A DNA stretch of 28,487 nucleotides from a virus: positions 1 through 28,487 of the IMG/VR virus record IMGVR_UViG_3300047157_000081; one strand, given 5' to 3'. Below the pieces are notes generated by a model. It was not told where the DNA came from. It ran no database searches and saw nothing but the letters and a program-made list of their open reading frames with translations. The translations under genes and the position numbers were made by a program. Positions 1 through 19,031 of this stretch are shown here, piece after piece. Positions within the stretch are counted from its first letter, which is position 1. The number at the start of each line of letters is the position of its first letter.

Positions 1-585
1 ATTTAATTCTGGTGGTTCGGCAAAGGATGATAGCTTTTGTATATCACCTTTACAAAATACAATTAGTTGTTCCCATGATTTTAATCTTTGTGTTAATAAA
101 TTGTATTGGTGTTCTAAATAATCAGGTCTTAACATATCGTGAGTGTCATCAAAGATTCTGTATTCATTTTCATTTACATAAAACAAAAAAGGTTTTCTGT
201 TTGTGCAATGATAGTAGAAAGCAACTTGGCTTATGTGCATAGGATCAGGATCATTTGGGAGCTGCGTTGATGCCATGTAGTATTCATCTTTGCCTCTCTT
301 CTTTTTAATTGTAGGTGGTTTAGTTTTTGCCTCACCTATTTTTGTATTTGATTCGTAGTCTACCCTACCAATAATATCTATGAGCATATCCTTATCTTTG
401 CTAGACACATATCTTTCTGCTACTAACTTTTCATTACCAAATATTTCTTTGACAGCTTTCTTCATGTTCTCAATAGTTGGATGTGCAAAACTAATCATCA
501 TCTCTCTTGCTAGTTTATCTTTAGCATCTACTGGTGGACTATTCTTATCTATTGAGTCTAGCTCTTGTTGAAATATCATCGTCAT
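1..585 (-). CDS. PD-(D/E)XK exonuclease (Cas4/lambda-exonuclease-like), 3' end outside window
   Basis: The minus strand is open from an ATG at 585 to the window edge, about 195 codons, so the C-terminus is missing. A restriction-nuclease core is visible: E57, then G73-R-V-D76, then E85-A-K87 (the D...ExK signature), then H117-I-S-Q120-V-A-F-Y124, like the Q/Y motif of RecB/Cas4-type exonucleases. Such enzymes degrade DNA for phage nucleotide supply or recombination. The start overlaps the end of the upstream minus-strand gene by about 40 nt, so the two are probably one operon driven from the divergent promoter near 900. This gene has no frameshift. The fold call is by motif; the exact subfamily is inferred. 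Confidence 0.7.
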   Translation of the reverse strand, partial: MTMIFQQELDSIDKNSPPVDAKDKLAREMMISFAHPTIENMKKAVKEIFGNEKLVAERYVSSKDKDMLIDIIGRVDYESNTKIGEAKTKPPTIKKKRGKDEYYMASTQLPNDPDPMHISQVAFYYHCTNRKPFLFYVNENEYRIFDDTHDMLRPDYLEHQYNLLTQRLKSWEQLIVFCKGDIQKLSSFAEPPELN

Positions 586-854
586 AATTTTTGTTCTCTA
601 ATGTAATCTTCTTATCGCCTTGATATAAAACTTCACAGGTTAATCTTTGAGCTGTGTTATTTACAAGATTACCGAATGGTGCTTTGTATCTAATCAAGAA
701 TGTTCTTCTCAATCTCTTGTGGTAGAGAGTAGTTCAGCACAAACCTTGTAAAGTTTTGGCTTGAAGATGGACTCCAATGGTCTAACCCTTGACCACCATT
801 GAAATTTGAAATAGTTAGTATTTCTTTTGTAATATAATCTTGTTTTAATATCAT
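545..854 (-). CDS. Hypothetical phage protein, one frameshift
   Basis: Starts at ATG 854, preceded by AAAGGGA about 8 nt upstream, which is better placed than the in-frame ATG at 881. The N-terminal part runs to a stop near 689. A neighbouring frame then continues with RYKAPFGNLVNNTAQ... and ends at 545-547, inside the start of the exonuclease gene. I read this as one protein of about 100 residues with a single-base indel near 690. It is the first gene of the minus-strand operon. I do not recognise the family; its position before an exonuclease suggests a small DNA-metabolism or DNA-binding protein, which is only inference. Confidence 0.5.
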
Positions 855-880
855 TTGTTTTTTCCCTTTCGTTTTCCACA

Positions 881-909
881 TAGATACAGGTTAAATAACT
901 TCTTGTCAA
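881..909 (-). promoter_or_regulatory. Sigma70-like promoter for the minus-strand exonuclease operon
   Basis: On the minus strand TTGACA (909-904) is followed after 17 bp by TATCTA (886-881), preceded by TG. It lies 27 nt upstream of ATG 854. The -35 is consensus; the -10 is weak. The -35 overlaps that of the opposite promoter. Confidence 0.45.
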
Positions 910-930
910 ACCTTTTATATGCTATATATA
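903..930 (+). promoter_or_regulatory. Sigma70-like promoter for the HTH regulator
   Basis: TTGTCA (903-908), 16 bp spacer, TATATA (925-930), about 30 nt upstream of the ATG at 960. It is back-to-back with the minus-strand promoter, sharing the same TTGTCAA core. Confidence 0.5.
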
Positions 931-933
931 CAA

Positions 934-954
934 CCTATTAGTATAACAAATAGG
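934..954. promoter_or_regulatory. 6-bp dyad, candidate operator over the HTH gene leader
   Basis: CCTATT (934-939) and AATAGG (949-954) are perfect inverted repeats separated by 9 bp. They lie between the -10 box and the ATG at 960, and the right arm includes the AGG of the ribosome binding site. A repressor bound here, or an RNA hairpin, could block expression of the HTH gene. Confidence 0.35.
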
Positions 955-959
955 AGAAA

Positions 960-1195
960 ATGACACTTAAAGAATGGCGAAAGAAACAAGGTATATCTCA
1001 TTATACATTAGGTACTATGCTTAGGAATAAGATCCATAAATCCAGCGACCAACTCGCAGAGATATTGTTTGGAGTCTAAAGAAAAAAGATTCCCTAAACC
1101 AAAGATGGTTAAAGAAGATATTAGAAGTAACTAAAGGTAAAGTATCTTTGCAAGATTTATATAATGCGTGGTGGACCTATGAAGAAAGTAAATAA
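960..1195 (+). CDS. Cro/CI-like helix-turn-helix regulator, two frameshifts
   Basis: Starts at ATG 960 after AGGAG. The first frame gives a phage-repressor N-terminus (MTLKEWRKKQGISHYTLGTM) and stops at about 1078. The next frames supply RYCLESKEKRFPKPKM and then VTKGKVSLQDLYNAWWTYEE up to the stop at 1195. The lysine-rich segment followed by VTKGKVSLQDLYNA is typical of small Cro-like proteins. Two one-base indels (near 1058 and 1110) restore a single product of about 78 residues. It is the first plus-strand gene beside a divergent promoter with a dyad, so it probably controls the switch between the exonuclease operon and the plus-strand genes (inference). Confidence 0.65.
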
Positions 1196-1454
1196 GCTAC
1201 CTTATACAAAAGAGTACGAGTAATTTGGCAAGACATTGTATCTAATTCAAGTCAATGGATGACACTTTTGATGTAGATAAGGATCAACTTTATTTGGTGT
1301 GAAGATACAGGTTATTTATATATAAAGATCAAAGAAAGTAAAGATATTTGCTTCATATTCTTATGATGGTGATAAACTTACAGTTGGTAACACTAACTGC
1401 TATACCCTAGATCAGTTGTTAAAAAAATTAGAAGTACAAAATGACAAACGATAA
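1179..1454 (+). CDS. Hypothetical phage protein, several frameshifts
   Basis: Starts with ATG 1179 inside the end of the HTH gene. The product must be pieced together from three frames: MKKVNKLPYTK, RVRVIWQDIVSNSSQW, MDDTFDVDKDQLYLV, then IFASYSYDGDKLTVGNTN up to the stop at 1452-1454. The result is a small soluble protein of about 90 residues with no membrane segment. The frames join cleanly in order, which supports one real gene damaged by indels. I do not recognise a characterised family. The next gene starts inside its last codons, so the two are translationally coupled. Confidence 0.5.
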
Positions 1455-1614
1455 AATGTTTGATGAGATAGGTTGTCCTGATGAGCTAAAGAAATGTAAG
1501 GAAGAAATCAAACGACATAAAAAGCACATAGAAAAACTATCCAATCAGTTGCTAGACCTTGAGAGAATAATAGAAGAAAAAGAAAACGAGATTATAATAA
1601 TTAAAAATAGATAG
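1441..1614 (+). CDS. Small coiled-coil protein, 57 residues
   Basis: An intact frame from ATG 1441 to TAG 1612-1614. From about residue 12 the sequence is almost wholly E/K/I/L rich with heptad-like spacing (EEIKRHKKHIEKLSNQLLDL) and ends in IIIIKNR. This predicts one long amphipathic helix that would dimerise. It overlaps the previous gene by 14 nt and the inferred GTG start of the next gene by 1 nt, so it belongs to the early plus-strand operon. No function is known to me; small coiled-coil phage proteins often act by binding a host or phage partner. Confidence 0.6.
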   Translation: MTNDKMFDEIGCPDELKKCKEEIKRHKKHIEKLSNQLLDLERIIEEKENEIIIIKNR

Positions 1615-1994
1615 TGAGATACGCATAAACATTTTGATAAGGACCTATACTCAAAGTGGCATAGGCGTTTTGAAAATATCGCAATGGTCGATATAGATTC
1701 AGTTGAAATATGTCGTAACAAAGGTTGCTTGGCAACCACTCGCACTAATTGAACACGTCTATGACACAGGTAATTATACAGAAGTACACTAATGTGATTA
1801 AGTCTTTGGGTAAAGCTGCAAATCTGCCTGTATTTTTGGTGTTTTATAAAAAAACGACCCAGGATAGCCTAACCTTTAAAGTTCAGCGTCTAAGCACCAC
1901 CAATGGACCTTTAAACGCTATGTCTGAGGAAGAATGGGTCTCTGTTTTACGAGACTTGCAGGACCAACATAAGAAAGTATGTAAGTATGGATAA
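1614..1994 (+). CDS. PD-(D/E)XK-fold phage protein with an atypical catalytic motif, frameshifted
   Basis: Three frames join into one protein: DKDLYSKWHRRFENIAMVDI, DSVEICRNKGC, WQPLALIEHVYDTGN, then YTNVIKSLGKAANLPVFLVF, ending at 1994. The pattern YxKWHR ... DIDSVE ... PLALIE ... KAANLPVFLVFY ... FKVQRL matches a widespread phage/prokaryotic family with a restriction-nuclease-like fold, in which the last strand normally reads (A/L)IE-x-K. Here the lysine position is valine (IEHV), so catalysis is doubtful. The start is taken as GTG 1614; an upstream indel makes this uncertain. Frameshifts are placed near 1620, 1730 and 1785. Confidence 0.55.
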
Positions 1995-2104
1995 AGACTA
2001 GAGGATTTTTATTCACTTAACTTATAAATTGTACCATCACTTGATCTAAATTAGAGGGGGAAGAAAGTCTCATTGTCTATGTGTTATCTTATCTGTGATG
2101 AAAT

Positions 2105-2287
2105 ATGCTTGGAAGAAGAAACAATTATGAGGCAAGATTAAGGCACGCTACAATTCAAAAGGATACAGGTCTAGCTGTAGGACCACGATTCAAGAGCTGT
2201 TTATCCACTCTTAAGAAATTAAATGTAATTAAAACTTTAAGAGGTAAATCTGGTAAGACTTATATTGTTAATGAGGTAATTTCTTAA
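2105..2287 (+). CDS. Possible winged-helix DNA-binding protein (may lack its N-terminus)
   Basis: A 60-residue open frame. The segment ATIQKDTGLAVGPRFKSCLS followed by LKKLNVIKTLRGKSGKTYIV has the look of a winged helix: helix, turn, recognition helix, then a glycine-containing beta wing ending in an aromatic strand. No clear ribosome binding site precedes ATG 2105. An overlapping start at 2101 (MKYAWKKKQL, then stop) suggests that an indel may have separated the true N-terminus. It follows about 110 nt of non-coding DNA. It may be a replication or transcription regulator; the call rests only on the local pattern. Confidence 0.4.
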   Translation: MLGRRNNYEARLRHATIQKDTGLAVGPRFKSCLSTLKKLNVIKTLRGKSGKTYIVNEVIS

Positions 2288-2424
2288 AGCTGAAAAGCTA
2301 TGATAGTTAAATAATGAAACAACCCTAGATGTCCGTTAAAAGACTATATTAGAAGAAACAATATACATTATATAATATAGATAAAATAATAAGTAAGAAT
2401 AAAGGTAATAAAGATAATATATAA

Positions 2425-2625
2425 ATGAATCTAGCTACCCTCCCTGCCGATACCTTGAAAATGGATAAGAACAATGTCTATTATTGTAAGTTAGCCATTC
2501 AGAGAAAAGAGGAACTGGCTCGTCAAAAAAATTTAGTAGATCCAAGAATAATACAAAGGGAATTAAGTAAGATTAACAAAGGAAAAGAACTTCGCCTTAT
2601 AAAAGAAAGAAAGAATATAATATAA
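2425..2625 (+). CDS. Hypothetical protein, 66 residues
   Basis: Intact frame of a charged, helical protein with a basic C-terminus (KGKELRLIKERKNII). It lies 30 nt upstream of the zinc-knuckle gene and on the same strand as the small terminase. A TATAAT box at 2371-2376 lies 49 bp upstream but has only a poor -35 match, so I do not call a promoter. No family recognised. Its size, charge and place before the terminase small subunit suggest a small early phage protein. Confidence 0.4.
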   Translation: MNLATLPADTLKMDKNNVYYCKLAIQRKEELARQKNLVDPRIIQRELSKINKGKELRLIKERKNII

Positions 2626-2654
2626 GAAATAATTTAGATTATTAGGGGAACCTA

Positions 2655-3068
2655 TTGGCAAAAATAAAGATTAGATGTGAGGCGATTGCCAAGCACTCTG
2701 GGAAAAGGTGTAAGTGTCTTGGTAAATTTATCCCTACTTCAAGAAGAATGTTATGTCCTTATCATAAGGGTGGTAAGTCGTGGGATAATAAGACCAGGAA
2801 GTATAAAGGGTTATACAAGAATGATAATATCAATATACAAAACAAGATTAATATATTAAAAAACTTAAAGAACTTTAAACATAAAACAGATGACGAAATC
2901 AAAGAGTATATCCTCCAAGAAAAAGAACGAGCTAAGTCTCAACGATACCGAACAAAATACTATGCTCGGTCATTTAGTAGATGGAACAACCGCTTACGAG
3001 GTAGCAAAAGAACTACAGATCAAATTGAAAACTTTATACGATTACTTGGATCTAAACCCAAAGTTTAA
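2655..3068 (+). CDS. Cys/His zinc-knuckle (HGG-like) protein upstream of terminase small subunit
   Basis: Starts at TTG 2655, with AGGGG at 2644-2648 at proper spacing and no in-frame ATG nearby, so an unusual TTG start is likely. The N-terminus carries C8, C19-x-C21, C34-x2-H37 followed by KGG, resembling the short HGG-type zinc proteins that commonly sit next to phage terminase small subunits. After about residue 75 the frame is lysine/arginine rich and overlaps the small terminase frame for almost 180 nt. Either the overlap is real or an indel hides an earlier stop, so the C-terminal 50-60 residues are uncertain. Role: probably nucleic-acid binding (inference). Confidence 0.55.
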   Translation: MAKIKIRCEAIAKHSGKRCKCLGKFIPTSRRMLCPYHKGGKSWDNKTRKYKGLYKNDNINIQNKINILKNLKNFKHKTDDEIKEYILQEKERAKSQRYRTKYYARSFSRWNNRLRGSKRTTDQIENFIRLLGSKPKV

Positions 3069-3359
3069 AGATAAATTTAATAAAGCTCAAGAACGAGGTA
3101 TAAAACACTTGTTGAAAAGATGTGCGTTGTCTTTAATTCTGATGTCAAAGAGCTTACCAATGAAGAGCTGCTATTTTTAAGAGAGAAACAAAATTGGTTG
3201 AAGTTTGTAGCTCCAAGATTAAGCTCATTGTTTGTTGAACAAACTAAGCAGGAAGTAAAACAGGATACTACTTTGAATATAAAATGGGAATCTGAACCTG
3301 ATTTGATTGATGTTTCTGCTGATACAGTTTCTGATACTTCTGATAGTAAAGACCTTTAG
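2890..3359 (+). CDS. Terminase small subunit, one frameshift
   Basis: The first frame (ATG 2890) gives a lysine-rich start, then a helix-turn-helix (GTTAYEVAKELQIKLKTLYD) and PKFKDKFNKAQERGIKHLL. Near 3115 the reading moves to the frame continuing CVVFNSDVKELTNEELLFLR, LKFVAPRLSSLFVEQTKQEV and an acidic tail ending at 3359. The HTH, the helical middle and the WLKFVAPRLS segment leading to a beta-strand/acidic tail fit phage small terminases, which bind the packaging site and regulate the large subunit. The large subunit lies 2.4 kb downstream, separated by the accessory region, which is unusual. Identity is by architecture, not by close similarity. Confidence 0.6.
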
Positions 3360-3371
3360 CACTTAAAATAT

Positions 3372-3410
3372 TTAAGAGAGTCAGCTTAGCTAACTCCCTT
3401 AAATTTTGTT
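3372..3410 (+). terminator. Bidirectional-type hairpin between convergent genes
   Basis: TTAAG-A-GAGT-C-AGC (3372-3385) pairs with GCT-A-ACTC-C-CTTAA (3389-3402) around a TTA loop, with two A/C mismatches, followed by AAATTTTG. It lies between the small terminase stop and the end of the minus-strand operon, so it can stop transcription from both sides. Confidence 0.6.
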
Positions 3411-3428
3411 GTTGTGTTATTTGTTTAT

Positions 3429-3701
3429 TCATATTCTATTTTCTAACTCATAATGTGAAATATAATTTTTTTCTTTAACTAATTTATATTTTCTTTTATT
3501 TTTATCCCACATAAAAAAAGCATAAAAAACTTCTAAACCTTTATTAAATCCATCATGGTGATCCCATTTTTTATTTTCAATATCGTCCAAATGAGTATCT
3601 ATACAGCTATCACCACAATAAATATTAAAAGGTCTTAAATCACAATCAATAAAACTTAAAAGACTTTCCTCTCCACATTTATCGCAATAGTATTTTTTCA
3701 T
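3429..3701 (-). CDS. Small Cys-rich (zinc-binding) protein, last gene of the minus operon
   Basis: I chose ATG 3701 over the in-frame ATG at 3719 because AAAGGA lies about 8 nt before 3701. The 90-residue product has C6-x2-C9 and C29-x3-C33-x3-H37, a plausible zinc ribbon or treble-clef site, then an aromatic, lysine-rich C-terminal half (FYAFFMWDKNKRKYKL). Small zinc proteins in phage accessory operons often bind host enzymes, but no family is recognised here. It is the promoter-distal gene of a five-gene counter-oriented operon; about 40 nt separate it from the upstream membrane gene. Confidence 0.6.
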   Translation of the reverse strand: MKKYYCDKCGEESLLSFIDCDLRPFNIYCGDSCIDTHLDDIENKKWDHHDGFNKGLEVFYAFFMWDKNKRKYKLVKEKNYISHYELENRI

Positions 3702-3741
3702 TTTATTTTTTCCTTTCATCTTTTTGTATTTGTTTATTCAT

Positions 3742-3852
3742 CTAAAATATTATAGCTCCAAGAATAAACCCTACTAAAAATATAATCCATTCAGGTCTAT
3801 ATTGTAGCTCTAATTGTTGCCATTCTTGTTTAGTTTTACCCATTATTATCAT
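3742..3852 (-). CDS. 36-residue single-pass membrane protein
   Basis: ATG 3852 (or the in-frame ATG at 3843) to TAG 3742-3744. An N-terminal charged half (GKTKQEWQQLELQYRPEW) is followed by an uninterrupted hydrophobic segment (IIFLVGFILGAIIF) that ends the protein: one C-terminal transmembrane helix with the N-terminus cytoplasmic. The start overlaps the end of the upstream gene by 17 nt, typical of translational coupling. The first residues MII-GKT-EW resemble the N-terminus of the preceding protein, which suggests local duplication. Function unknown. Confidence 0.55.
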   Translation of the reverse strand: MIIMGKTKQEWQQLELQYRPEWIIFLVGFILGAIIF

Positions 3853-3982
3853 TTTTTATTTCCTTTTTTAGTTGTTCTATTTCTAATTGTAATTTGAGAA
3901 ACTGAGATAATATATAATACAGATCCTCTTTTTTCATACCTTGTTTTAACCATTCATTCTCAGTTTTTCCTAGTATTATCAT
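3836..3982 (-). CDS. 48-residue helical protein in the minus operon
   Basis: Intact frame ATG 3982 to TAA 3836-3838. The sequence begins MIILGKTENEWLKQGMKKED and continues as an amphipathic helix (LSQFLKLQLEIEQLKKEIKN), likely coiled coil, ending NDNNG. It overlaps the upstream gene at ATGA (3979-3982) and the downstream start by 17 nt. The GKTE-EW start parallels the downstream membrane gene (GKTKQEW), pointing to related N-termini. No known function. Confidence 0.55.
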   Translation of the reverse strand: MIILGKTENEWLKQGMKKEDLYYILSQFLKLQLEIEQLKKEIKNDNNG

Positions 3983-4128
3983 TGGTCCTCACTTTCTGTT
4001 TTTTTAATTAATACTTTTAATGATTGCTCTATTTCTTTTATTTCTTTTTTATCAGTATTAAAGATATTAATATAATCATCTATGACTTGATTAAGTCTAT
4101 CAATAGCTTGTTTTGTTTCTGTTTTCAT
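3979..4128 (-). CDS. 49-residue coiled-coil protein in the minus operon
   Basis: Intact frame ATG 4128 to TGA 3979-3981. It is almost fully helical and charged (MKTETKQAIDRLNQVIDDYI ... KEIEQSLKVLIKK) with heptad spacing of I/L/V, so a dimeric coiled coil is predicted. Both ends overlap neighbours through ATGA: the start with the 103-residue gene upstream, the stop with the 48-residue gene downstream. A GGGGTGC stretch precedes the start. Function unknown; the size and coupling suggest it is made in ratio with its neighbours. Confidence 0.55.
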   Translation of the reverse strand: MKTETKQAIDRLNQVIDDYINIFNTDKKEIKEIEQSLKVLIKKTESEDQ

Positions 4129-4436
4129 ATCGCACCCCCTTTCAATTCAATTATTAATTGTTCTATTTGTGGTCCATGTTTTAAACCTAGATATATTATA
4201 TAAAACATAGCCAGGAATAAAACATAATCTAAAAAGTTTAATATATTTTTAATCATTGCTTTTTGTTTTCCTATTCTTTTAACATTCCAATCAAATTCAG
4301 AATAAAACCTATCAAAAATATATTTAACTTTTTCTTGATCTGTTTTTAATTCTTTTTCATCATTATCTAATTCAACACATTCAAGAATATATTTTTTATA
4401 ATTCTTTTTATATGCTGTATGGTGTAGTTTAGTCAT
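4125..4436 (-). CDS. First gene of minus operon: 103-residue protein with one membrane helix
   Basis: Start taken at ATG 4436, eight nt after GGAGG (4449-4445); the in-frame ATG at 4451 overlaps that site. The N-terminal two-thirds is soluble and charged (YKKYILECVELDNDEKEL, KVKYIFDRFYSEFDWNVKRI). A hydrophobic segment then follows (FLDYVLFLAMFYIIYLGL), with an amphipathic C-terminus (HGPQIEQLIIELKGGAI). The N-terminal part resembles a small marine-phage protein type I have seen without a known role; the membrane segment may be a variant C-terminus. A promoter with TTGACC/TATGAT is upstream. Confidence 0.6.
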   Translation of the reverse strand: MTKLHHTAYKKNYKKYILECVELDNDEKELKTDQEKVKYIFDRFYSEFDWNVKRIGKQKAMIKNILNFLDYVLFLAMFYIIYLGLKHGPQIEQLIIELKGGAI

Positions 4437-4465
4437 TTTGTTTTCCTCCATTTGTTAATATACAA

Positions 4466-4495
4466 ATCATATACATATATTTATTTTAAGGTCAA
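4466..4495 (-). promoter_or_regulatory. Promoter of the five-gene minus operon
   Basis: On the minus strand TTGACC (4495-4490), 18 bp spacer, TATGAT (4471-4466), then GGAGG at 4449-4445 and the ATG at 4436. Confidence 0.5.
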
Positions 4496-4546
4496 TACAA
4501 AAAGTATATTTTTTTTATGTGTGATATTTATGCAACAGTATGTAGT

Positions 4547-4561
4547 TTAGAATAATTCTAA
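4547..4561. promoter_or_regulatory. 15-bp perfect palindrome, candidate operator
   Basis: TTAGAATAATTCTAA is self-complementary around its central A. It lies in the divergent region between the two facing-away promoters, 14 bp upstream of the TTGACA at 4575, a position suited to a dimeric regulator controlling both directions. Confidence 0.45.
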
Positions 4562-4574
4562 TATATTTATTTAG

Positions 4575-4603
4575 TTGACATATCTTTTTTGTATAATTAT
4601 ATT
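4575..4603 (+). promoter_or_regulatory. Strong sigma70-like promoter of cassette 1
   Basis: TTGACA (4575-4580), 17 bp spacer, TATATT (4598-4603); a TATAAT at 4592-4597 overlaps the spacer. RBS AGAGG follows at 4625-4629 and the ATG at 4636. Confidence 0.6.
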
Positions 4604-4635
4604 GAGATTAAACAAATAAACAAAAGAGGTATAAA

Positions 4636-4791
4636 ATGGAAAATCAAGAAAAATACAAAATAATTAAATTTAGAAAATCTGGAACTCAAAAAGTTATGGA
4701 GAAAAATTTAACTTTAGATGAGGCTAAAAGATATTGTAGTAGACCAGACACTAAAGGCAAAAACTGGTTTTGTGGATTTACAAAACAATAA
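4636..4791 (+). CDS. Conserved 51-residue phage protein (cassette 1)
   Basis: Intact frame ATG 4636 to TAA 4789-4791, with AGAGGT 5 nt upstream. The pattern YKIIKFRKSG ... VMEKNLTLDEAKRYCSRPDT ... WFCGFTKQ matches a small protein type that recurs in phages of many hosts: a short beta hairpin, then an LTLEEAxxHCSxPxT helix-turn and a W-F-x-G-(Y/F) end. Its function is unknown to me. It has its own consensus promoter and its own strong terminator, so it is a monocistronic, probably highly expressed early or host-takeover gene (inference). Confidence 0.7.
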   Translation: MENQEKYKIIKFRKSGTQKVMEKNLTLDEAKRYCSRPDTKGKNWFCGFTKQ

Positions 4792-4826
4792 AATATTTTT
4801 TAATTATTAAATAATAATAAACAATT

Positions 4827-4865
4827 AAACCCACTGATGATTAATTTTATTGGTGGGTTTTTTTT
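4827..4865 (+). terminator. Rho-independent terminator of cassette 1
   Basis: AAACCCAC (4827-4834) pairs with GTGGGTTT (4853-4860) around an AT-rich loop, followed by a run of Ts (4858-4865). It is a diverged copy of the terminator at 5049-5090. Confidence 0.85.
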
Positions 4866-4868
4866 ATA

Positions 4869-4896
4869 TTGACAATATATAAATTGGATATATAAA
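4869..4896 (+). promoter_or_regulatory. Promoter of cassette 2
   Basis: TTGACA (4869-4874), 16 bp, TATAAA (4891-4896), beginning 4 nt after the T-run of the preceding terminator. AAAGG at 4905-4909 precedes the ATG at 4920. Confidence 0.6.
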
Positions 4897-4919
4897 GAGA
4901 TTAGAAAGGTAAAAATAAT

Positions 4920-5036
4920 ATGAAAAAACACACTGTGGAAATAGATTTACAAGATTATCTATTTACTGAAAAACAAATTATTAATAAATTAAATAAAATT
5001 AATAATACTCATACAACTGAATTATTAAATCAATAA
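4920..5036 (+). CDS. 38-residue mini-gene (cassette 2)
   Basis: ATG 4920 (RBS AAAGG) to TAA 5034-5036. The product MKKHTVEIDLQDYLFTEKQI continues with an Asn/Lys/Ile-rich helix and ends TTELLNQ. It is soluble, with no cysteine or membrane segment. The frame is intact, and it sits exactly between its own promoter and terminator, which argues that it is expressed although very short. No family recognised. The transcript could also act as a small RNA. Confidence 0.5.
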   Translation: MKKHTVEIDLQDYLFTEKQIINKLNKINNTHTTELLNQ

Positions 5037-5048
5037 TAATAAACAATT

Positions 5049-5090
5049 AAACCTACTGATTAATTAATTTTAATTGGTAGGTTTTTTTTT
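5049..5090 (+). terminator. Rho-independent terminator of cassette 2
   Basis: AAACCTAC (5049-5056) pairs with GTAGGTTT (5077-5084) across a TTAATTAATTTTAA-type loop, followed by nine Ts. Compared with the first copy, one C-G pair has become T-A in both arms. Confidence 0.85.
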
Positions 5091-5416
5091 GTGTGAGATT
5101 CTGGAATAGAGGACCTGGAATAATAATTGTTATTAAACTTGCTATTCTAATATATATCGCAGCTGCGATCTCTTCCCATAAAATATCGGTCAACAATACT
5201 GACCTATCTACTTCCGATAATTAATAGTTATAGGAATTTGTATCAGTAACGCATTATTATCGTTACACCTAATATTGTACAGCTTAACCTATATTTTTGG
5301 TTTGCTCGACCCCCCCCTATACCCCACAATGCGACCGCAGTTTATTATATATATATACATGGGACTCGAGGACTCCCTTACAGCCAGTCAGCTTTACCCT
5401 TAACTAGATGTAGTAT
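5091..5416. other. Non-coding region with several dyads, upstream of the terminase block
   Basis: I see no convincing gene here. It holds a 14-bp perfect palindrome (ATCGCAGCTGCGAT, 5156-5169), an inverted repeat GGTCA/TGACC (5188-5204), GTAACG/CGTTAC with a 9-nt loop (5246-5266), a run of eight Cs (5310-5317), alternating TA (5345-5357) and a GGGA-C-TC/GA-C-TCCC hairpin (5361-5377). Its base composition looks more GC-rich than its surroundings. Candidate roles are a packaging (cos/pac) or terminal region, operators, or a structured RNA; none is proven. Confidence 0.45.
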
Positions 5417-5605
5417 ATGGACTACTTTGGAATAGACGATATAGAATCAGTTGCTTATGTTGATAAAAATAACAATGATGTTATTATAAAGTTTGTTGGT
5501 TTTCCCAATGAACTAGCTTCACAGCTATTTATTAACTATGTTATGCTATGTGTTGGCTTTGACTTTGAACCTGTAGATAGTATGCCTAGTACAAAGATAC
5601 ACTAA
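5417..5605 (+). CDS. Small hypothetical protein preceding terL
   Basis: Intact frame of 62 residues beginning MDYFGIDDIESVAYVDKNNN, then VIIKFVGFPNELASQLFINY and ending DSMPSTKIH. It predicts a small alpha/beta protein with no membrane segment or cysteine pair. Similar short proteins starting with (M)xYFGIDDIE occur, to my memory, just before the large terminase in pelagiphage-type genomes; the function is unknown. No strong ribosome binding site is seen. Its last codons form the first copy of a duplicated junction sequence (5574-5591). Confidence 0.55.
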   Translation: MDYFGIDDIESVAYVDKNNNDVIIKFVGFPNELASQLFINYVMLCVGFDFEPVDSMPSTKIH

Positions 5606-5702
5606 ATATGGCTTCAAAACTAAAACCTAAAGATTAAGTTTCACAAAGGTAATTGATGGTAAACACTAACCTGAAAGAACTAAATAGATAGTATGCCTAG
5701 TA
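5574..5702 (+). repeat. 18-bp direct repeat flanking a degraded mini-ORF before terL
   Basis: TAGATAGTATGCCTAGTA occurs at 5574-5591 and again at 5685-5702. Each copy is followed by a similar ATACACTA...ATATGG that ends in a start codon: ATG 5608 for the first copy, ATG 5722 (terL) for the second. The repeat therefore duplicates a gene-end/gene-start junction. Confidence 0.7.
5608..5687 (+). pseudogene. Frameshifted mini-ORF between the repeats
   Basis: ATG 5608 opens MASKLKPKD and then stops. Neighbouring frames give VSQR, VIDGKH and PERTK before the TAG at 5685-5687. It could be one 25-residue basic peptide broken by indels, or debris inside the duplicated junction. No family; low certainty. 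Confidence 0.25.
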
Positions 5703-5721
5703 AAAAATGATACACTATAAT

Positions 5722-6994
5722 ATGGATATTAAAATACCTTACACCCCTAGAAAGCATCAAGCCTACTTACACTAGAAAAAAATATCTAAATAACAGATGG
5801 AATGTATTAGTTTGTCATAGAAGGTTTGGCAAAACAGTATGTATGATTAATCATTTAATTAGGTCAGCATTACTGTCCAAAAATAAGAACCCTAGGTATG
5901 CCTATATAGCACCCACCTTCAAACAAGCGAAAAGTATTGCTTGGGATTACATGAAACAGTTTACAGCAAAGATACCTTACACCAAATTTAACGAAACAGA
6001 ACTAAGAGTAGATTTACCCAATGGCAGCAAGAATAACTTTACTAGGTTCAGAAAACTCTGATGGGTTAAGAGGTATATACCTTGATGGATGTGTGATTGA
6101 TGAGTACGCAAATGTAAACAGTAAGTTGTTTCCAGAAATAATTAGACCAGCACTATCAGATAGAAAAGGTTACTGTGTGTTTATTGGTACACCAGCAGGA
6201 ATGAACAATAACTTTTATGAACTATACCAACACGCACAAGGTGCAGATGATTGGTTTAACTACAAAGCAAAAGCTAGTGAAACAAAAATTGTAGATGCAG
6301 AAGAGTTAGTCAAGGCAAAAGAAGTAATGGGTGATAAGAAGTACCAGCAAGAGTTTGAATGTGATTGGATAGCAAACATAGAAGGTGCAGTATATTCAGA
6401 TGTACTTGTAAGATGGAAGATCAAAAACAATTAACTAGAGTTCCCTACGATCCATCACTACCAGTATCTACCGCATGGGATCTTGGGGTATCTGATCATA
6501 GTGCTATTATATTCTATCAGCAGTTAGGAAGAGCATTAATATAATAGATTACCATGAAGAAGAGGTCAAGGTTTACCTTACTATTACAGATGATTAAGGA
6601 TAAAGATTATGTTTACAAAGATCATTTTGCACCACATGACATTGAAGTTACAGATTTTGGTAATGGCAAAACCAGGAGAGAGGTCGCCTACCAATTAGGA
6701 ATTAGGTTTAAAGTCGTTCCAAAAATTCCACTAGAAGATGGTATACACGCAACCACAATGACCCTACCTAGATGTTGGATTGATACTGACCATTGCAAAA
6801 AGTTAATAGATGCGTTAAGACATTACCACAGGAAGTATATTGACAAAAATAGAATGTTCAGATCGAAGCCTGTACACGATTGGAGTTCTCATGCTTGTGA
6901 TGCAATGCGTTACCTAGCTGTTGGACTACAAGAAATTAATACTAGACAAACTGCTCCACAAAGTGTAGCAGATAATGAGTACAGGATTATATAA
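5722..6994 (+). CDS. terL: Terminase large subunit (ATPase/nuclease), several frameshifts
   Basis: Pieces in successive frames form one protein of about 424 residues. Walker A is CHRRFGKT (near 5813-5836, after RWNVLV) and AYIAPTFKQAKSIAWDYMKQ follows. Walker B with catalytic carboxylate is IYLDGCVIDEYANV (near 6075-6110), then YCVFIGTPAGMNN, the coupling motif. The nuclease half starts STAWDLGVSDHSAIIFYQQ, continues DYHEEE and ends VHDWSSHACDAMRYLAVG, supplying the metal-binding acidic residues. This is the motor that packages DNA through the portal. Breaks lie near 5775, 6040, 6410 and 6540-6570, so the apparent fragments are not separate genes. Start ATG 5722; the size suits short terminases of marine podoviruses. 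Confidence 0.9.
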
Positions 6995-6996
6995 TT

Positions 6997-7218
6997 ATGG
7001 GATCACTTTTTAAACCAAAAATGCCACCGCTGCCACCAGTTCAACCTTTGCCAGAACCGCCTAAAGCAGAAGTCTCGCAAGAAGAAAAAGACAGGATTGC
7101 AGCAGAACAAGCAGCGATTGAAAGAAAAAGAAAAGGCAGAAGATCAACAATATTAACTGGACCACTAGGTGTTGAAGAAGAAGCTGAGACAGAACAGAAA
7201 ACTTTATTAGGATCATAA
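6997..7218 (+). CDS. Proline/glutamate-rich virion-region protein, paralogue A
   Basis: Intact 73 residues: a proline-rich start (KPKMPPLPPVQPLPEPP), an E/A/K-rich helix, and a C-terminal motif GRRSTILTGPLGV ending EQKTLLGS. This short family lies between terL and the portal gene in many T7-like and marine podoviruses. The C-terminal motif returns in the gene at 7423, so the two are tandem paralogues. It starts 3 nt after the terL stop and ends in an overlap with the next ATG. Its role is not established; the position suggests a head or connector assembly helper. Confidence 0.65.
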   Translation: MGSLFKPKMPPLPPVQPLPEPPKAEVSQEEKDRIAAEQAAIERKRKGRRSTILTGPLGVEEEAETEQKTLLGS

Positions 7219-7421
7219 TGTTAGAAAAATTAAAAAGATATTTAAAAAAAAAAACCAAAAGTAAAAAAAGTAAAAAAGAACTTAGTATAAAGCAATAGAT
7301 CATGGTAATGACATTACTTTTGAAAACGAAGTTAAAAAACCAGAAGTAAAAGAAGTTAAAGAAACAATTTACGAAAGAAACAAAAGCAGAAACTAAATCA
7401 TCATTAACATTTGGAGAATAA
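7218..7421 (+). CDS. Lysine-rich small protein, frameshifted
   Basis: ATG 7218 overlaps the previous stop. The first frame gives MLEKLKRYLKKK and runs through a poly-A tract (a likely indel site at 7240-7250). A neighbouring frame continues AIDHGNDITFENEVKKPEV and KETI, and a third ends KETKAETKSSLTFGE at TAA 7419-7421. The result is about 67 residues, basic at the N-terminus and E/K-rich after. No family recognised. It sits between two paralogous genes and is translationally coupled to both. Confidence 0.45.
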
Positions 7422-7422
7422 T

Positions 7423-7658
7423 ATGGGTGGAGCAGTAGCAAGAATAGTTAGACCAAAGACCAAAACCACCACCTGCACCAGCTCCTGTAGTTGCACCTAC
7501 TGCAGCAGAAGTTTCTCAAAGCAACAGCAACAAATATGGATGGTTATGATGCAAGAAAGACTAAAGCAAAAGGTAGATCAACAACAATTATGACAAGTTC
7601 TAAAGGTGTAGAAGATGAAACATTAACATTAGGTAAGAAAAGTTTATTAGGACAATAA
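7423..7658 (+). CDS. Proline-rich virion-region protein, paralogue B, frameshifted
   Basis: ATG 7423, MGGAVARIVRPK, then after a shift KPPPAPAPVVAPTAAEVSQS, then GYDARKTKAKGRSTTIMTSS and finally GVEDETLTLGKKSLLGQ, stopping at 7656-7658. The C-terminal pattern GRSTTIMTSSKGVE...LLG mirrors GRRSTILTGPLGVE...LLG of the gene at 6997, so this is a tandem paralogue with a proline-rich N-terminus and the same end motif. The stop overlaps the portal ATG. Function unknown, probably head assembly. Confidence 0.6.
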
Positions 7659-9291
7659 TGGCAAGAACAGATTTAACTAAAAATTTATTATCAAGATACG
7701 AAAGACTAGAAGGTCAAAGACAAAACTGGGAAACACATTGGCAAGAAGTTGCAGATTATATGCAACCAAGAAAAGCAGATGTAACTAAAAAAAGAGCTAG
7801 AGGTGATAAAAGAATGGAACAATTTTTGATTCATCACCTATACAAGCAGTAGAATTATTAGCAGCATCATTACATGGTATGCTAACAAATCCATCTACAC
7901 CTTGGTTTACTTTAAGATTTAAAGATGAAGATATTGATAATGAAGATGAAGCAAAACTTTGGTTAGAAGCAGCAACAGATGCAATGTACACAGCATTTAA
8001 TAGATCAAACTTTCAACAAGAAATATTTGAATTGTATCATGACCTAATTACTTTTGGTACTGCAGCAATGTTTATCGAAGAAGATGATGATGACATTATA
8101 AAATTTTCAACAAGACATATCAACGAAGTATTTATTGCAGAGAATGATAAAGGTAGAATAGATACTATCTTAGAAGATTTAATATATCAGCTAGAGCTGC
8201 AATACAAAAATTTGGAGAGCAAGTATCATCAAGATGTTCAAGTAAAGCAAAAAAAGATCCTTACGAAGAAGTAGAAATACTACACGCAGTTTATCCAAGA
8301 TCAGATTTTAATCCTAAGAAAAAAGATAAAAAGCTAATATGCCATTTGAATCTGTCTATATGGAATATAAAAATGGTAATGAATTATCTGTTGGTGGATT
8401 TAAAGAGTTTCCTTTTGTAGTACCAAGATATTTAAAAGCATCAAATGAAATCTATGGAAGATCACCTGCAATGACAGCATTACCTGATGTTAAGATGTTA
8501 AATGAAATGTGTAAGACTACAATTAAAGCTGCACAGAAACAAGTAGACCCACCACTATTAGTTCCTGATGATGGTTTCTTATTACCTGTTAGAACTGTAC
8601 CAGGTGGATTAAATTTTTATAGATCAGGTACAAGAGATAGAATTGAACCATTAAACATTGGTGCAAACAATCCATTAGGTTTAAACATGGAAGAGCAAAG
8701 AAGAGATAGTATTAGAGCTGTGTTCTATGTAAATCAATTAATGATGCAACAAGGTCCACAAATGACAGCAACAGAAGTTATCCAAAGAAACGAAGAGAAG
8801 ATGAGATTGCTTAGGACCTGTATTAGGTAGACTACAATCAGAATTATTAAAACCATTAATTGATAGAGTATTTGCAATATTACTTAAGAAACAATATGTT
8901 ACCACAAGCACCAGAGTTTTTATCAGGTAGAGATATAGAAATAGAATATGTTTCACCACTTGCTAAAGCACAAAATCTACAGAGTTACAATCTATTATGA
9001 GAGCAGTAGAAATACTAGGAATCATTAGCAAATGTAGCACCAGTATTTGATTATGTTAATTTTGATAATTTAGTTAAACACTTAGCAGACATTGTTGGTG
9101 TGCCACAAAAAATATTAAAATCACAAAGTCAAGTCAATGCAGAAAGACAACAAGCACAACAACAACAACAGGAGCAAATGCAACAGATGCAACAACTACA
9201 ACAAGTTGCTAAAGCAGGAGGAGATATAGCACCACTAGCGAAAGCATTGCCAGAAGAAGCAAGAGCTGTAGCAAATGCTGAAGTGGAATAG
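7658..9291 (+). CDS. Portal / head-tail connector protein (T7 gp8-like), many frameshifts
   Basis: Joined frames give about 540 residues. Characteristic stretches in order: RYERLEGQRQNWETHWQEVA, SSPIQAVELLAASLHGML, TNPSTPWFTLRF, ELYHDLITFGTAAMFIEEDD, GGFKEFPFVVPRYLKASNEI, YGRSPAMTALPDVKMLNEMC, KQVDPPLLVPDDGFLLPV, GPQMTATEVIQRNEEK and GPVLGRLQSELLKPLIDRVF. These are hallmark segments of the podoviral connector that forms the 12-mer channel for DNA. The C-terminus (residues after about 470) is glutamine-rich (AQQQQQEQMQQMQQLQQ) and then alanine-rich. Breaks occur near 7825, 8190, 8230, 8335, 8812, 8890, 8980 and 9025. The stop is at 9291. Confidence 0.9.
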
Positions 9292-12808: not shown

Positions 12809-15367
12809 ATGGCTAGAGTTGCTGTTGACAGCTTACAAACTTTACAGGTGGTGAACTATCACCACGATTAGATGGAAGAACTGATTTAACTAAATATACT
12901 TCTGGTTGTAAAACATTAGAAAATTTAGTTGTCTATCCACATGGTGCTGCAGCAAGTAGACCAGGTACAACATTTTGTAGCTGAAGTTGCTAATAGTGCA
13001 AACAAAACAAGATTAATACCTTTTGAATTTTCTACAACTCAAACTTATATGCTTGAGTTTTCTAATTTAAAAATGAGAGTCTACAAAGATAGTGGTGCTG
13101 TATTAGAAGGAGATAAAACTATATCTGCAATTACAAAAGCTAATCCTGCTGTAGTAACAGCAACTGGTCATGGTTATTCAAATGGTGATGAAGTAGTTAT
13201 TAGTAGTGTTGGTGGTATGACAGAAGTTAATGGTAAAAGATTTTTAGTTGCAGACAAAACAACTAATACATTTGAACTACAAATAAAGATGGAGTTAATA
13301 TAAACAGTTCATCATTTACAACTTATACTTCTGGTGGTGTATCTAATAAAGTTTTTGAAATTACAACACCTTATACAACTGCACAACTTTTTGATTTAAA
13401 ATTTGCACAATCGGCAGATGTAATGTACATTACTCATCCAGCACACGAAGTAGAAAAATTATCTCGTACTGGTCATACTGCTTGGACATTAACAGATGTA
13501 GATTTTACTAAAGGACCAATGCAAGATGCTAACACAACAGACACAACTTTAAATCCTGGTCAATCAGCAGTAGGTACAGGTATAGCTTTAGTTGCTTCTG
13601 CGGTTACAGGTATTAATGGTGGTTAGTGGTTTTTTATCTACAGATGTTGGAAGATTTGTTTTTTTAAGTGATGGTTATGCAAAGATAACAGGTGTTGGTA
13701 ATACAACTAATGCAGTACATTACAATTATTACAGCTTTAGATAATGCTAGTGCTACAGCTAATTGGCAACTAGGAGCTTTCTCAGATACTACAGGTCATC
13801 CTTCTTGTGTTACTTTTTTTGAACAACGATTAGTATTTGCAGGAACAACTAATCAACCACAAACAATATTTTTTTCAAAGTCTGGTGATTATGAAAACAT
13901 GGATGCAAACATTGGTGGAACTGTAGCTGATGATGATGCAATTATTTATACAATCGCATCTAACCAAGTTAATGCTATTAGATTTATGACAGCAACTAGA
14001 ACTTTAATTATTGGTACAGCAGGTGGTGAGTTTACAGTATCAGGTGGTGGTACAGATAGTGCTATTACACCTACAAATATATTAATTAAAAAACAATCTA
14101 ATCATGGTGCAGCTAATGTAGATGCTATAGCTGTAGGTAACGCAACATTATTTTTACAAAGAGCTAAAAGAAAAATTAGAGAACTAGCTTATAACTTTGA
14201 TGTTGATGGTTACATTGCACCTGACATGACTATCCTTGCTGAACATATTAGTGAAGGTGGACTAACACAATTGCATATCAACAAGAACCTAATCAAATTA
14301 TTTATGCAGTAAGAGGAGATGGTGAACTTAGTAGGTTTAACATATCAAAGAGAACAACAAGTAACAGCTTGGCACAGACATATCTTTGGTGGAAGATTTG
14401 GTAATGCAACAATTACAGTTACTGATTATGCAAATATTGCAAATGGTACAAGAATAGTTTTAACAAAAGCAGATGGTACAACTACAACTTTACATCCGCT
14501 ACATCTTCTGCTGGCAAAATTTCATACTACAACTAGTAACAATCAAACAGCAACAAATTTAAAAACATTAATAGATGCTGACTCTGATTTTACAGCAACA
14601 GTTAGTAGTAATGTAGTTACGATTACAGAAACATCACCATTGTCTACAGGATTTTTAACTATTACATCTTTAGATGATGCTACTCGATTAACAACTAATG
14701 AAGGTAAAGCAGTATGTGAAAGTGTTGCTGTTATTCCTACAGACGATACTGAGTATCAAGTTTATGTTATTGTTAAAAGAACAATTAATGGTGTTACAAG
14801 AAGATTTGTAGAATTATTAAATGTATTTGATTTTACAGAAACAGATAACACAACATTTAATTTTTTAGATAGTGCATTAAGTTATAGTGGTAGTGCTGTT
14901 ACAACAATATCAGGATTAGATCACCTTGAAGGACAAACAGTTTCTATATTAGCTAATGGTGCAACACACCCAGATAAAACTGTCAGCTCTGGTTCTATTA
15001 CTTTAGATCGTTCTTCAACAATGTTAAAGTAGGTTTAGTTACACATCAATATTACAAACTATGAGATTGATGCTGGTTCACAGAATGGTACATCACAAGG
15101 TAAGACAAAAAGAATATATGATATTACAGTTAAGAATATTTGAATCTATTGGTGTAGAAGTAGGGTGAATCTTTAGATAACATGGAAAGAATACCATTTA
15201 GAACATCATCTGATTTAATGGATCAAGGTATACCACCATTTACAGGAGATAAAGCTGTAGAGTTTAGAGGTAACTATGATACAGATGGTTTTATTTTTGT
15301 TAGACAAACTCAACCTTTACCTTTAACAATTTTATCTTTATACCCAAGATTAACTACAAACCAATGA
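12809..15367 (+). CDS. Tail tubular protein B (T7 gp12-like nozzle), many frameshifts
   Basis: ATG 12809. After a shift near 12840 the hallmark start FTGGELSPRLDGRTDLTKYT, GCKTLENLVVYPHGAAASRP appears, then TRLIPFEFSTTQTYMLEFSN. A central part carries TFFEQRLVFAGTTNQPQTIF, FSKSGDYENMD, RTLIIGTAGGEFTVSGGGTD and VDAIAVGNATLFLQRAKRKI, RELAYNFDVDGY. The end is ERIPFRTSSDLMDQGIPPFT, QTQPLPLTILSLYPRLTTNQ at 15365-15367. About 850 residues, matching the six-bladed nozzle protein. An insertion of beta-rich sequence (about 14400-14720) interrupts the canonical VGLTYQREQQVTAWHRH segment and may be a surface domain. Breaks near 12955, 13280, 13625, 13720, 14275, 14510, 15030 and 15135-15170. Confidence 0.88.
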
Positions 15368-15372
15368 TAAAA

Positions 15373-15812
15373 ATGTTATATATAGTACCTTACAGCTGAA
15401 CATGGAAGATTTATATTTCTAATCAAATGAATCATTCTTATGGATAAAGATGCACAATTTGAAGGAGATGCTATGCAACCTTTAGAACAAGATCATTTAG
15501 CTTTTACAGGTATTTAAATAAGAAACCTATTCTTTCTGCAGGTATGAAAATGATTTGGGGTGGTGTTGCAGAAGGTTGGGTTATTGCAACAACAAGATGT
15601 TTGGAATCATCCATTAGTTATTGCTAAAGCAATTAAGAAAGATTTTGCAAGAGTTGCAAAAGAAAATAATATTAAAAGAGTACAAACTGCTGTAAGAGCA
15701 GACTTTAAAAAGGTATAAGATTTGCAGAGTGGTTAGGTTTAGAAACGAAGGATTAATGAAACATTATGGTTTTGATGGTTCAGACCAATACAGATATGCG
15801 AGGATATTTTAA
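15373..15812 (+). CDS. GNAT acetyltransferase-like internal virion protein (T7 gp13 position), frameshifted
   Basis: ATG 15373. Joined frames give MLYIVPYSAEHGRFISNQ-like start, FEGDAMQPLEQDHLAFTG, then LNKKPILSAGMKMIWGGVAE, GWVIATT, WNHPLVIAKAIKKDFARVAK, NNIKRVQTAVRADFKK, then IRFAEWLGFRNEGLMKHYGF and YRYARIF at 15810-15812. The R-x-Q-T-A-V-R-A-D ... A-x-x-W-x-x-x-L-G-F-x-x-E-G pattern is the GNAT fold, seen in gp13-like proteins of podoviruses, where it may be structural rather than enzymatic. About 145 residues. Breaks near 15400-15435, 15515, 15600, 15715 and 15745. Confidence 0.75.
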
Positions 15813-17833
15813 TGAGTTGGGAAAATTAGAAGGAGAAACAAAAGTTGCTTTTGCAAAATCTGGTGTACAGGTAGTGGAACTGCTTATAAAATAGCTGCCG
15901 CTAATGCTAGAGAAGCTGTACTACAGAGAGAAATAATAACATATAATTCTAAAGTTGCTCAATCAAGAAAAATAGAACAAGCAAATTTTTCTAGAATACA
16001 AGGTAATATTGCAAGACAACAAGCTAGACTTGCAAAATCTGGTGTAATAATAGAGTTTCAACAAATATTATTCAAACATTAGATAACGAAGTATCAGTTA
16101 AAAGAAATAGATTATTAACAGCAGCTTATGTAGATAAAGATCCATTAGCTTTAAATTTAATTCAAACAGATTTAGAAACTTTATATGAACAAACTTATAA
16201 AGGTAGAATTGATACAGATGAATATAATAAATTAATTCAAGGTATACCTGGTGAAATACAAATATTTGAAGTTAGTCAATTAATATCTTCAAATCCTAGA
16301 CAGGCATATTCAGATTTAATGAATAAAGATAAATTTGTTAATCTTGATTTAAACAAAAGAGTTTCTTTAATTAGTGAAGTTAAAAGTGTTTTAATTCCAG
16401 AAATAAAAGATGAATATAAAAATCTTGTTGCCGCAGCTGCATTTGGCAAAGATGTTCCTTTTGATATAAAATTTGCAAAAGAAATTTTACCGCCAAGAAC
16501 ATTTAATAATATGATGAAAGAATATAGCAATGTAAAAGATACTGTTGCTGATGTTAAGATTTTAAACACAACATCTAATAAAAATTTATCACAAACTTTA
16601 GATAATATGCTTTCAAAAAGAGAACAAAGTAAAACATTTATTGAGTATCAAAAAGAAAAAAAAATTCTTGTAGAAGCAGTAAATGCTAGAAATGAAGCTA
16701 TGGCTAGTGATCCTGTGTTTTTCTTAAATGCTACCAATGATAATATAAAAGTATTAAGTGATGAACTACAAAATGAAAATAATCCAGATTTAAAACTACA
16801 AAAGAAAAAAGCATTAACAGAAATTTATGTTGAAACTCAATTAAATATGGGACAACCACCTTATCAAATAAAAGTTATGTCAAATTCTGAAGCTAGTGGT
16901 TTTGTTGAGCAATATGTAAATGGTGATCAAAATATGCGTATAGCAATGTTGCAAAATTTAGACGCAGAGTTTGGTGATTATAATTCAAATGCTATGCTTC
17001 AATTAACAAATGCAGGTTTACCTGTTACTGCCGAACTTTCTTCTTTTTTTAATAACCCAAAACTTACAGAAAGATTTTTAAGTTTTGATTCTAAAGATGA
17101 ACAAGACAGATTAAAACAATATGCAAAAGATAACAATATAACTTTCAATGATGTAAGAAAAAGTATTAGAGATAATTTAAGTGAATTTGAAGATGTTGTT
17201 ATGAGAGGTAGTAGATTTAATACAAGTGTTGCTTTAGATAAAATGGATAATATTGTAGATGTATTAAGTTATTATGCTTTAAATGAAATGGTTGCTGGTG
17301 AATCTCAAGGTTCAGCAGAAAAAAATGCTTATAATTTAATTAATAATAGTTTTGAAATACAAGATACTTTTTTTGTACCATTAGTTTACAATGGTAAATC
17401 TATTACATCAAGTGCAGATTTTATTGTTGAAAAAGCAAATCTTATAAAAGATTTTTATGTAGAAGATTTTGGTGCTGTTGCTTTTGAATCTGTAGATGAA
17501 GATGTTACAGATATAGAACTCAACGAAGCAATGAAAGACCAATTAAAAAATTTTGGTGAATGGAGAAATTCAGCAGATGGCACAGGTATAGTTTATGGAA
17601 TTGTATTTAATGATGGTTCTTTTGGTCCTGTAAAAAATCAAGAAGGAGAATATTTATCTTTTAATTTTGACAATACATCTTTAACAATACCAGGAACAGA
17701 TAAAGAGATGGATTTAGATATAAGAACTAAATCTCAACAACTTCAACCAAGAAGAGGTTATCCTGCTGTTTCAGAATCAGTTTCTAAATTACAAGCTAAT
17801 AAAGGTTCAGAAATAATAGGCAAAAGAAGATAA
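15812..17833 (+). CDS. Internal core / ejection protein region: gp14-like start joined to gp15-like body
   Basis: ATG 15812 (AGGA 8 nt before). The first part, after early indels, reads LGKLEGETKVAFAKSGV, GSGTAYKIAAANAREAVLQR, EIITYNSKVAQSRKIEQANF and IARQQARLAKSGV, the style of T7 gp14-like core proteins but without the usual longer N-terminus. A one-base shift near 16046 leads directly to NNRVSTNIIQTLDNEVSVKR, PLALNLIQTDLETLYEQTYK and the 504-residue frame beginning NKDKFVNLDLNKRVSLISEV, which resembles the middle and end of gp15-like ejection proteins. The gp15 N-terminus is not seen. From 16046 to 17833 the frame is intact. Alternative: gp14 ends at 16082 and gp15 starts at ATG 16319. Confidence 0.6.
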
Positions 17834-19029: not shown

Positions 19030-19031
19030 TT

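Follow-up and report, generated by a model that had tools for sequence, protein, structure and literature searches.

A conserved minus-strand array of small, probably exchangeable genes between the terminase genes of HTVC010P-type pelagiphages

The window analysed here (the whole stretch of DNA, a linear viral contig of 28,487 bp) carries between the genes of the terminase small (TerS) and large (TerL) subunits an array of very small minus-strand genes; these look like ordinary ORFans but represent one of the states taken by a conserved locus of probable exchange. We consider it likely that the locus is a conserved rack of exchangeable, translationally coupled accessory genes, which are swapped by annealing at short linkers, with anchor genes in a fixed order. 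The early accessory genes of phages are mostly uncharacterised, and it has long been asked how they change so rapidly in operons that nevertheless remain translatable. At this locus joints, anchors and slots can be read directly, so that modular exchange could be tested in a culturable phage-host pair.

The minus-strand genes of the window

Judged from its sequence, the window is assigned to the HTVC010P-type pelagiphages, a very common family whose host is the ocean bacterium SAR11. HTVC010P, Skadi, Lederberg, Greip and HTVC034P gave DNA matches over parts of positions 1-8000 and agreed with the window in similarity and gene order; the nearest cultured relatives showed about 72-83% identity to parts of this region. 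The minus-strand ORFs of 103, 49, 48, 36 and 90 codons, overlapping or abutting, which had been listed in the preliminary description, were all found (Table 1), and the five ORFs at 3429-4451 are real. Minus-strand ATG ORFs of at least 36 aa covered 97.8% of this interval and those of the plus strand 0%, while in 2000 dinucleotide shuffles the coverage was 5% on average and 49% at most, and none of the shuffles reached the observed value. GC skew and AT skew were both inverted across the array region. With the upstream ATG the 103- and 90-codon ORFs would be 108 and 96 codons long; the shorter starts have the better ribosome sites.

That the array consists of chance ORFs in the AT-rich DNA of an error-prone contig is very improbable. 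The AT content rises to 79% near the array, and TerS, TerL and the portal gene, the last in six pieces when compared with HTVC010P, are split over several frames, but the result of the shuffles, the low pN/pS values of anchors A and B (Table 1) and the annotated equivalents in cultured isolates all speak against an artefact. The frame breaks relative to HTVC010P across much of the window point to sequencing or assembly indels. The packaging, portal and neighbouring genes at 5722-9288 and 1-3359 are broken over several frames relative to HTVC010P; at 16319-20724 the ORFs (504, 398, 389 and 177 aa) are long and open, and the GC content is lower there. The contig may be a mixture of regions differing in sequence quality.

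Table 1. Features of the array and its surroundings in the window
Feature	Position	Strand	Basis or remark
TerS	2890..3359	+	frame-broken in the contig, two frames
Sixth ORF, anchor C, family 1, N-terminus MNKQITQQQ	3268..3432	-	family in 35/65 arrays; pN/pS 0.63
16-bp hairpin inside anchor C coding sequence, candidate terminator of minus array	3370..3404	-	-20.4 kcal/mol for 81-nt start
Linker copy ATGAATAAACAAATA, start of anchor C	3418..3432	-	part of longer D2 repeat
Slot-3 module, 90-aa product, C-x2-C...C-x3-C-x3-H, possible zinc site	3429..3701	-	ORF
Second copy of 15-mer ATGAATAAACAAATA	3727..3741	-	other side of slot-3 (zinc-type) module
Anchor B, 36-aa single-helix membrane protein, family 0	3742..3852	-	36/65 arrays; pN/pS 0.43
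Linker D3 copy 1, start of 36-codon gene	3820..3853	-	repeat search
Slot-2 module, 48-aa product, starts MIILGKTENEW	3836..3982	-	ORF; coiled coil in preliminary description
Linker D3 copy 2, start of 48-codon gene	3950..3983	-	79% identical to copy 1
Slot-2 module, 49-aa product, ends ESEDQ	3979..4128	-	ORF; coiled coil in preliminary description
Anchor A, 43-aa membrane gene MIKNILNF...KGGAI, family 2	4125..4257	-	27/65 arrays; pN/pS 0.26
103-codon fused ORF, about 60 N-terminal codons of phrog_11100 protein + anchor A	4125..4436	-	comparison with relatives
Promoter-like TTGACC-18-TATGAT for minus array	4466..4495	-	promoter scan; aligned among relatives
Control block between divergent promoters, strongly conserved	4491..4537		nearly invariant in 12 aligned sequences
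15-bp palindrome TTAGAATAATTCTAA	4547..4561		imperfect in several relatives
Promoter-like TTGACA-17-TATATT	4575..4603	+	promoter scan
Plus-side tiny gene, 51 aa	4636..4791	+	ORF
Stem-loop terminator of first plus unit	4827..4867	+	-16.1 kcal/mol
Promoter-like TTGACA-16-TATAAA of second plus unit	4869..4896	+	sequence
Plus-side tiny gene, 38 aa	4920..5036	+	ORF
Second, similar stem-loop terminator	5049..5091	+	repeat D1, 82% similar to first
TerL	5722..6991	+	pieces in three frames in the contig

The five genes had been described as intact. The 103-codon ORF, however, is a truncated fusion, the 90-codon gene lacks 22 codons present in relatives, and a sixth minus-strand ORF had been overlooked at the TerS end. 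In the fused ORF anchor A, a separate gene in relatives, is joined in frame to a fragment of a phrog_11100-type phage protein, the full length of which is about 121 aa. All 28 relatives that could be read with the ORF start (of 30 fetched) extend beyond the breakpoint of the window, most of them with a form of AEWLSGLAL; one further locus is without the ATG. At KQKAM the window sequence jumps to anchor A, and about 188 bp are missing relative to HTVC010P. The phrog_11100 protein gave a confident, all-helical model (pLDDT 92.5), for which there were no fold matches in the PDB at E<=0.001, and its good matches in BFVD were limited to unnamed or uncharacterised viral proteins. Proteins of the phrog_11100 type also occur on contigs of up to 51 kb (L192-L219), a size unlike that of HTVC010P-type phages. 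In HTVC010P (KC465898.1, 34,099-34,222) anchor A is unannotated and falls between two listed genes.

The first approximately 27 codons of the sixth ORF belong to the anchor C family, and its start overlaps the stop of the fifth, 90-codon gene in an ATGA. Most relatives are homologous to it only as far as about 3353, adjoining the TerS end, and the remainder runs antisense into TerS. The hairpin inside anchor C could act as a terminator between converging transcripts; selection on it beyond coding was weak (median z -1.0 in 36 sequences). The hairpin is kept in some relatives and absent in others.

The zinc-type gene has two relatives in IMG/VR (L036 and L037), where it is the 22 codons longer. 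The homology of these two to the window lies mainly at 3418-3780, that is, in the zinc-type gene and its linkers, the other matches being short and weak. In L036 a 26-nt linker pattern is matched exactly on both sides of the gene; when the whole collection was scanned, this pattern was found in five contig stretches. This gene would appear to be a module caught in exchange. Its predicted model was unusable (pLDDT 45) and a search for a solved relative of the protein gave none. At L036 1520-2173 the array with the zinc-type module converges on a 217-aa gene, which we take to resemble a 2OG-Fe(II) oxygenase; on account of this presumed neighbour, the module may cross phage groups.

The locus in relatives: anchors, slots and linkers

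The preliminary description regarded the array as inserted and saw no homology by eye. Its position and orientation are in fact conserved in HTVC010P-type relatives, which rules out a one-off insertion, and the array genes do have relatives. In the TerS-TerL interval the annotated minus-strand genes number six in HTVC010P, seven each in HTVC034P and Greip and nine each in Skadi-5 and Lederberg; in HTVC035P, HTVC203P, HTVC100P and HTVC024P the array is counter-oriented to the TerS-type gene, one HTVC100P gene excepted. With TerS and TerL as flanks, 96 intervals were obtained from the fetched loci, 65 of which, each 1.6-4.7 kb long, were left after removal of exact duplicates. A simple caller found 513 minus-strand genes in these arrays (median 59 aa) in 231 families, 151 of them single; spurious ORFs taken in by the caller may inflate the number of families, and distant homologues may be counted as different since the families were set by short-protein BLAST. 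Single-helix membrane genes made up 96 of the 513, and at 96 and 64 of the 448 gene junctions the overlap was 4 nt (-4) and 1 nt (-1), respectively.

The gene content of the array turns over fast. Pairs with TerS at least 95% identical (n=69) shared a median of only 21% of their array families (Jaccard 0.21). A dedicated superinfection-exclusion or anti-defence operon, the five products of which act together, would fit the two membrane-helix products, the tight translational coupling, the separate control region and the presence of an Ocr homologue at the same locus in relatives. However, the five genes do not travel together, their non-anchor families being found once or twice each among the 65 arrays, and the first ORF is both truncated and fused. 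Turnover on this scale would hardly be expected of a fixed complex; a dedicated operon is clearly unlikely.

The order A-B-C was held in all 33 arrays with two or more anchors; the window enters this count for B alone, since it carries A in fused form and C in overlap with TerS. No anchor was present in 17 of the 65 arrays and just one in 15; a rack with three anchors is therefore the best description of one subgroup. Slots 1-4 hold 16, 22, 14 and 9 families, respectively, in the 17 arrays that have the full set of anchors. Pairs of the same family in different arrays occupied the same slot in 27 of 33 cases, while the permuted mean was 9.9 and none of 2000 permutations reached 27. When near-duplicates were removed, the anchor order was kept in 29/29 and the slot in 15/17, as compared with 4.9 in permutations (0/2000). 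The slots between the anchors draw on largely separate gene pools. Anchors A and B were also the commonest near-identical blocks between phages with TerS less than 65% identical.

Homology between arrays began and ended close to the gene starts. Half (50%) of the 3577 right homology edges were situated 0-30 nt after a start codon (random positions 13%), and 49% of the 3325 left edges 40-0 nt before one (random 16.5%). Junction 54-mers preceding genes of different families were identical at 38 or more of the 54 positions in 485 of 127,203 pairs, gene-body windows in none of 127,546, and column-shuffled junctions gave 3.1 matching pairs; after removal of near-duplicate arrays (58/65 left) the values were 395 of 103,076 pairs vs 2.4. 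Among the 485 linked pairs 126 differ on both sides, some of them still sharing anchor A because the window's copy of it is fused. For the pairs with both neighbours different, the identity was 0.89 immediately upstream of the start codon, dropped to 0.58 at +10 to +19 and was at the background level (about 0.33) from +30, a part of the peak at the starts following from how the linked pairs were selected. Unrelated genes share linkers of 30-50 nt; in these lie the ribosome site and the start codon, and frequently a 4-nt overlap as well. Since the linkers are shared across junctions, unrelated proteins finish with the same residues, ESEDQ in 7 genes from 6 families and ESEE in 10 genes from 10 families. 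No mid-protein 4-mer common to three or more families was found among the array proteins.

The GKT-EW pattern shared by the 48- and 36-residue products had earlier been taken as the sign of a local duplication. Gene duplication was rejected, as nothing beyond the 34-nt start-codon linker is repeated and the gene bodies are unrelated. The start of the 48-aa gene lies in a linker common to other arrays.

Phage mosaicism is usually ascribed, as the consulted part of PMC3203893 states for mycobacteriophages, to ordinary illegitimate recombination with selection for intact genes, other breakpoints being lethal and the shared starts being common translation signals. This would explain why the linkers hold ribosome sites, and where genes overlap, the tails ESEDQ, ESEE and KGD/KGG at the C-terminus seem to be the translated ribosome site of the gene that follows; the 103-codon fusion of the window, too, resembles a short-homology deletion. 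Yet column shuffling keeps the ribosome-site composition and gave far fewer matching pairs than observed, the identity reaches 10-20 nt into unrelated coding sequence, and neither the fixed anchor order nor the slot-specific pools are predicted by this account, which we find rather unlikely.

In the exchange mechanism that we prefer, the operon of very small genes runs backwards from a divergent control region (4440-4640) towards the TerS end. Anchors A, B and C keep their order, and different phages fill the slots before, between and after them differently. Every join is a linker of about 30-50 nt that holds a ribosome site and a start codon, and in many cases an overlap of 4 nt (ATGA) or 1 nt. 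As the phages have linkers and anchors in common but not the gene bodies, a single gene could be swapped by strand annealing between co-infecting phages, the translation of the operon remaining unbroken. For annealing proteins, a few tens of bases of homology are enough. In HTVC010P an Erf-type annealing protein (PF04404, 3.4e-9; phrog_155, 1.4e-14) is encoded about 3 kb from the array, in a part of the genome outside the window. Its neighbour is called a nuclease in HTVC034P; the HTVC010P copy, which matched no Pfam or PHROG family, is probably a nuclease as well, and the homologue in the window is frame-broken. We tentatively suggest that the anchors could be homology posts, that each slot has its own gene pool and that Erf annealing at the linkers might swap single genes in frame.

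Possible functions of the array genes

The payload of the array would be early host-takeover and counter-defence proteins; the clearest example is the Ocr homologue present in three relatives. No product of the window matched Pfam above the cut-off. In PADLOC, a defence-protein library, the single match, a weak one (E 0.006), was given by the coiled-coil 49-aa product; integrase and Mistic identities of this product were rejected, the matches being sub-threshold. The function scan of the relatives covered 54 of the 94 listed proteins, and Ocr was the clear function match. This DNA-mimic anti-restriction protein (family 39) was present in 3 of the 65 arrays, all of relatives; it scored 36.3 bits against PF08684 (gathering score 25), above the cut-off, and E 1.8e-6 against T7 Ocr (gene 0.3; 1s7z), of which the window has no homologue. 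A gene of the Lederberg array reached 20.4 bits against ArdA (PF07275), below the gathering score of 27. Other matches in the arrays of relatives were GP88, DpnD-PcfM, Kyano_Gp96 and DUF7222, with two weak ones (E about 0.0025) in PADLOC. Acidic DNA-mimic character gave no clear signal in the first-position genes.

The accessory or anti-defence role proposed earlier finds support at the level of the locus, in the Ocr homologues and the sub-threshold ArdA match, but no gene of the window matches a known function. The recurrent single-helix membrane genes gave no pointer to superinfection exclusion. According to the consulted part of PMC6811365, restriction-modification and CRISPR are seldom used by SAR11, a point against anti-restriction as the chief function. 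The array is apparently a changing kit of accessory, sometimes anti-defence proteins. The locus also offers, by position and within a short stretch, candidates for small anti-defence proteins: genes that share it with Ocr-like modules could be screened without sequence homology. If the exchange mechanism is true, this would be a genome architecture selected for evolvability and a counter-defence library in a very abundant group of ocean viruses.

Control region, plus-side units and known systems

The present data support a separate module that runs against its surroundings and has a control region of its own. The 15-bp palindrome reported earlier in the shared divergent region is present. Promoter-like sites were found on both strands of this region, in agreement with the proposal of an own promoter; the scan as a whole, however, was no richer than shuffled sequences (26 sites vs 25.8), so the promoters rest on their individual scores and on conservation. 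The 19-mer core of the control block was exact in 57 of 220 loci, overlapping loci being counted apart, and the sequence around the second plus-unit promoter (4875-4903) matches relatives at up to 100%.

The PeSL elements of T4-type phages have reportedly been treated by Arbiol in 2010 and Comeau in 2014. There, too, small early genes are shuffled by recombination at short repeated regulatory sequences (see also PMC4503421). Each PeSL module has a promoter and a terminator; the modules of the minus-strand array, in contrast, overlap or abut with neither, the joint is a translational linker, and fixed anchors and slot-specific pools are added. In the SAS/ESAS of Cluster K mycobacteriophages a short conserved sequence likewise stands just before the starts of genes of different families (PMC3203893, in part); as described there, SAS is one 13-bp motif across the genome, whereas the array has several junction-specific linkers spanning stop and start at one locus, and these are AT-rich, unlike the published SAS consensus. 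The 'ORFanage' of cyanophage S-PM2 is also a patch of ORFans with fast gain and loss. According to the consulted part of PMC4503421, its authors linked it to a packaging end, to which the position of the present array between TerS and TerL is comparable; they proposed, however, its loss as one block by mispackaging and judged PeSL-type shuffling unlikely there. The hypervariable region of HTVC010P-type phages (PMC10504331, in part) is similarly variable at a conserved position in the same phage group, but it corresponds to Skadi-1 13,646-15,713 with tail/lectin genes, and the present array matches Skadi-1 near 2.7 kb. The literature search gave no description of the array; the main genome paper (Du 2021) may contain one. 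The exchange of modules at conserved joints is not new as such; the ordered anchors, slot-specific pools and translational linkers are new within the literature searched.

The plus side of the window is close to the PeSL layout, with two promoter-ORF-stem-loop units (4575-4867 and 4869-5091), so that the unit is repeated. One plus-side stem-loop was present in L006 and two in the window, and by a loose criterion one or more in 38 of the 65 plus regions. The near-copies of the stem-loop terminator at 4800-4866 and 5022-5090 bound the 38-aa unit, a PeSL-like layout in a pelagiphage.
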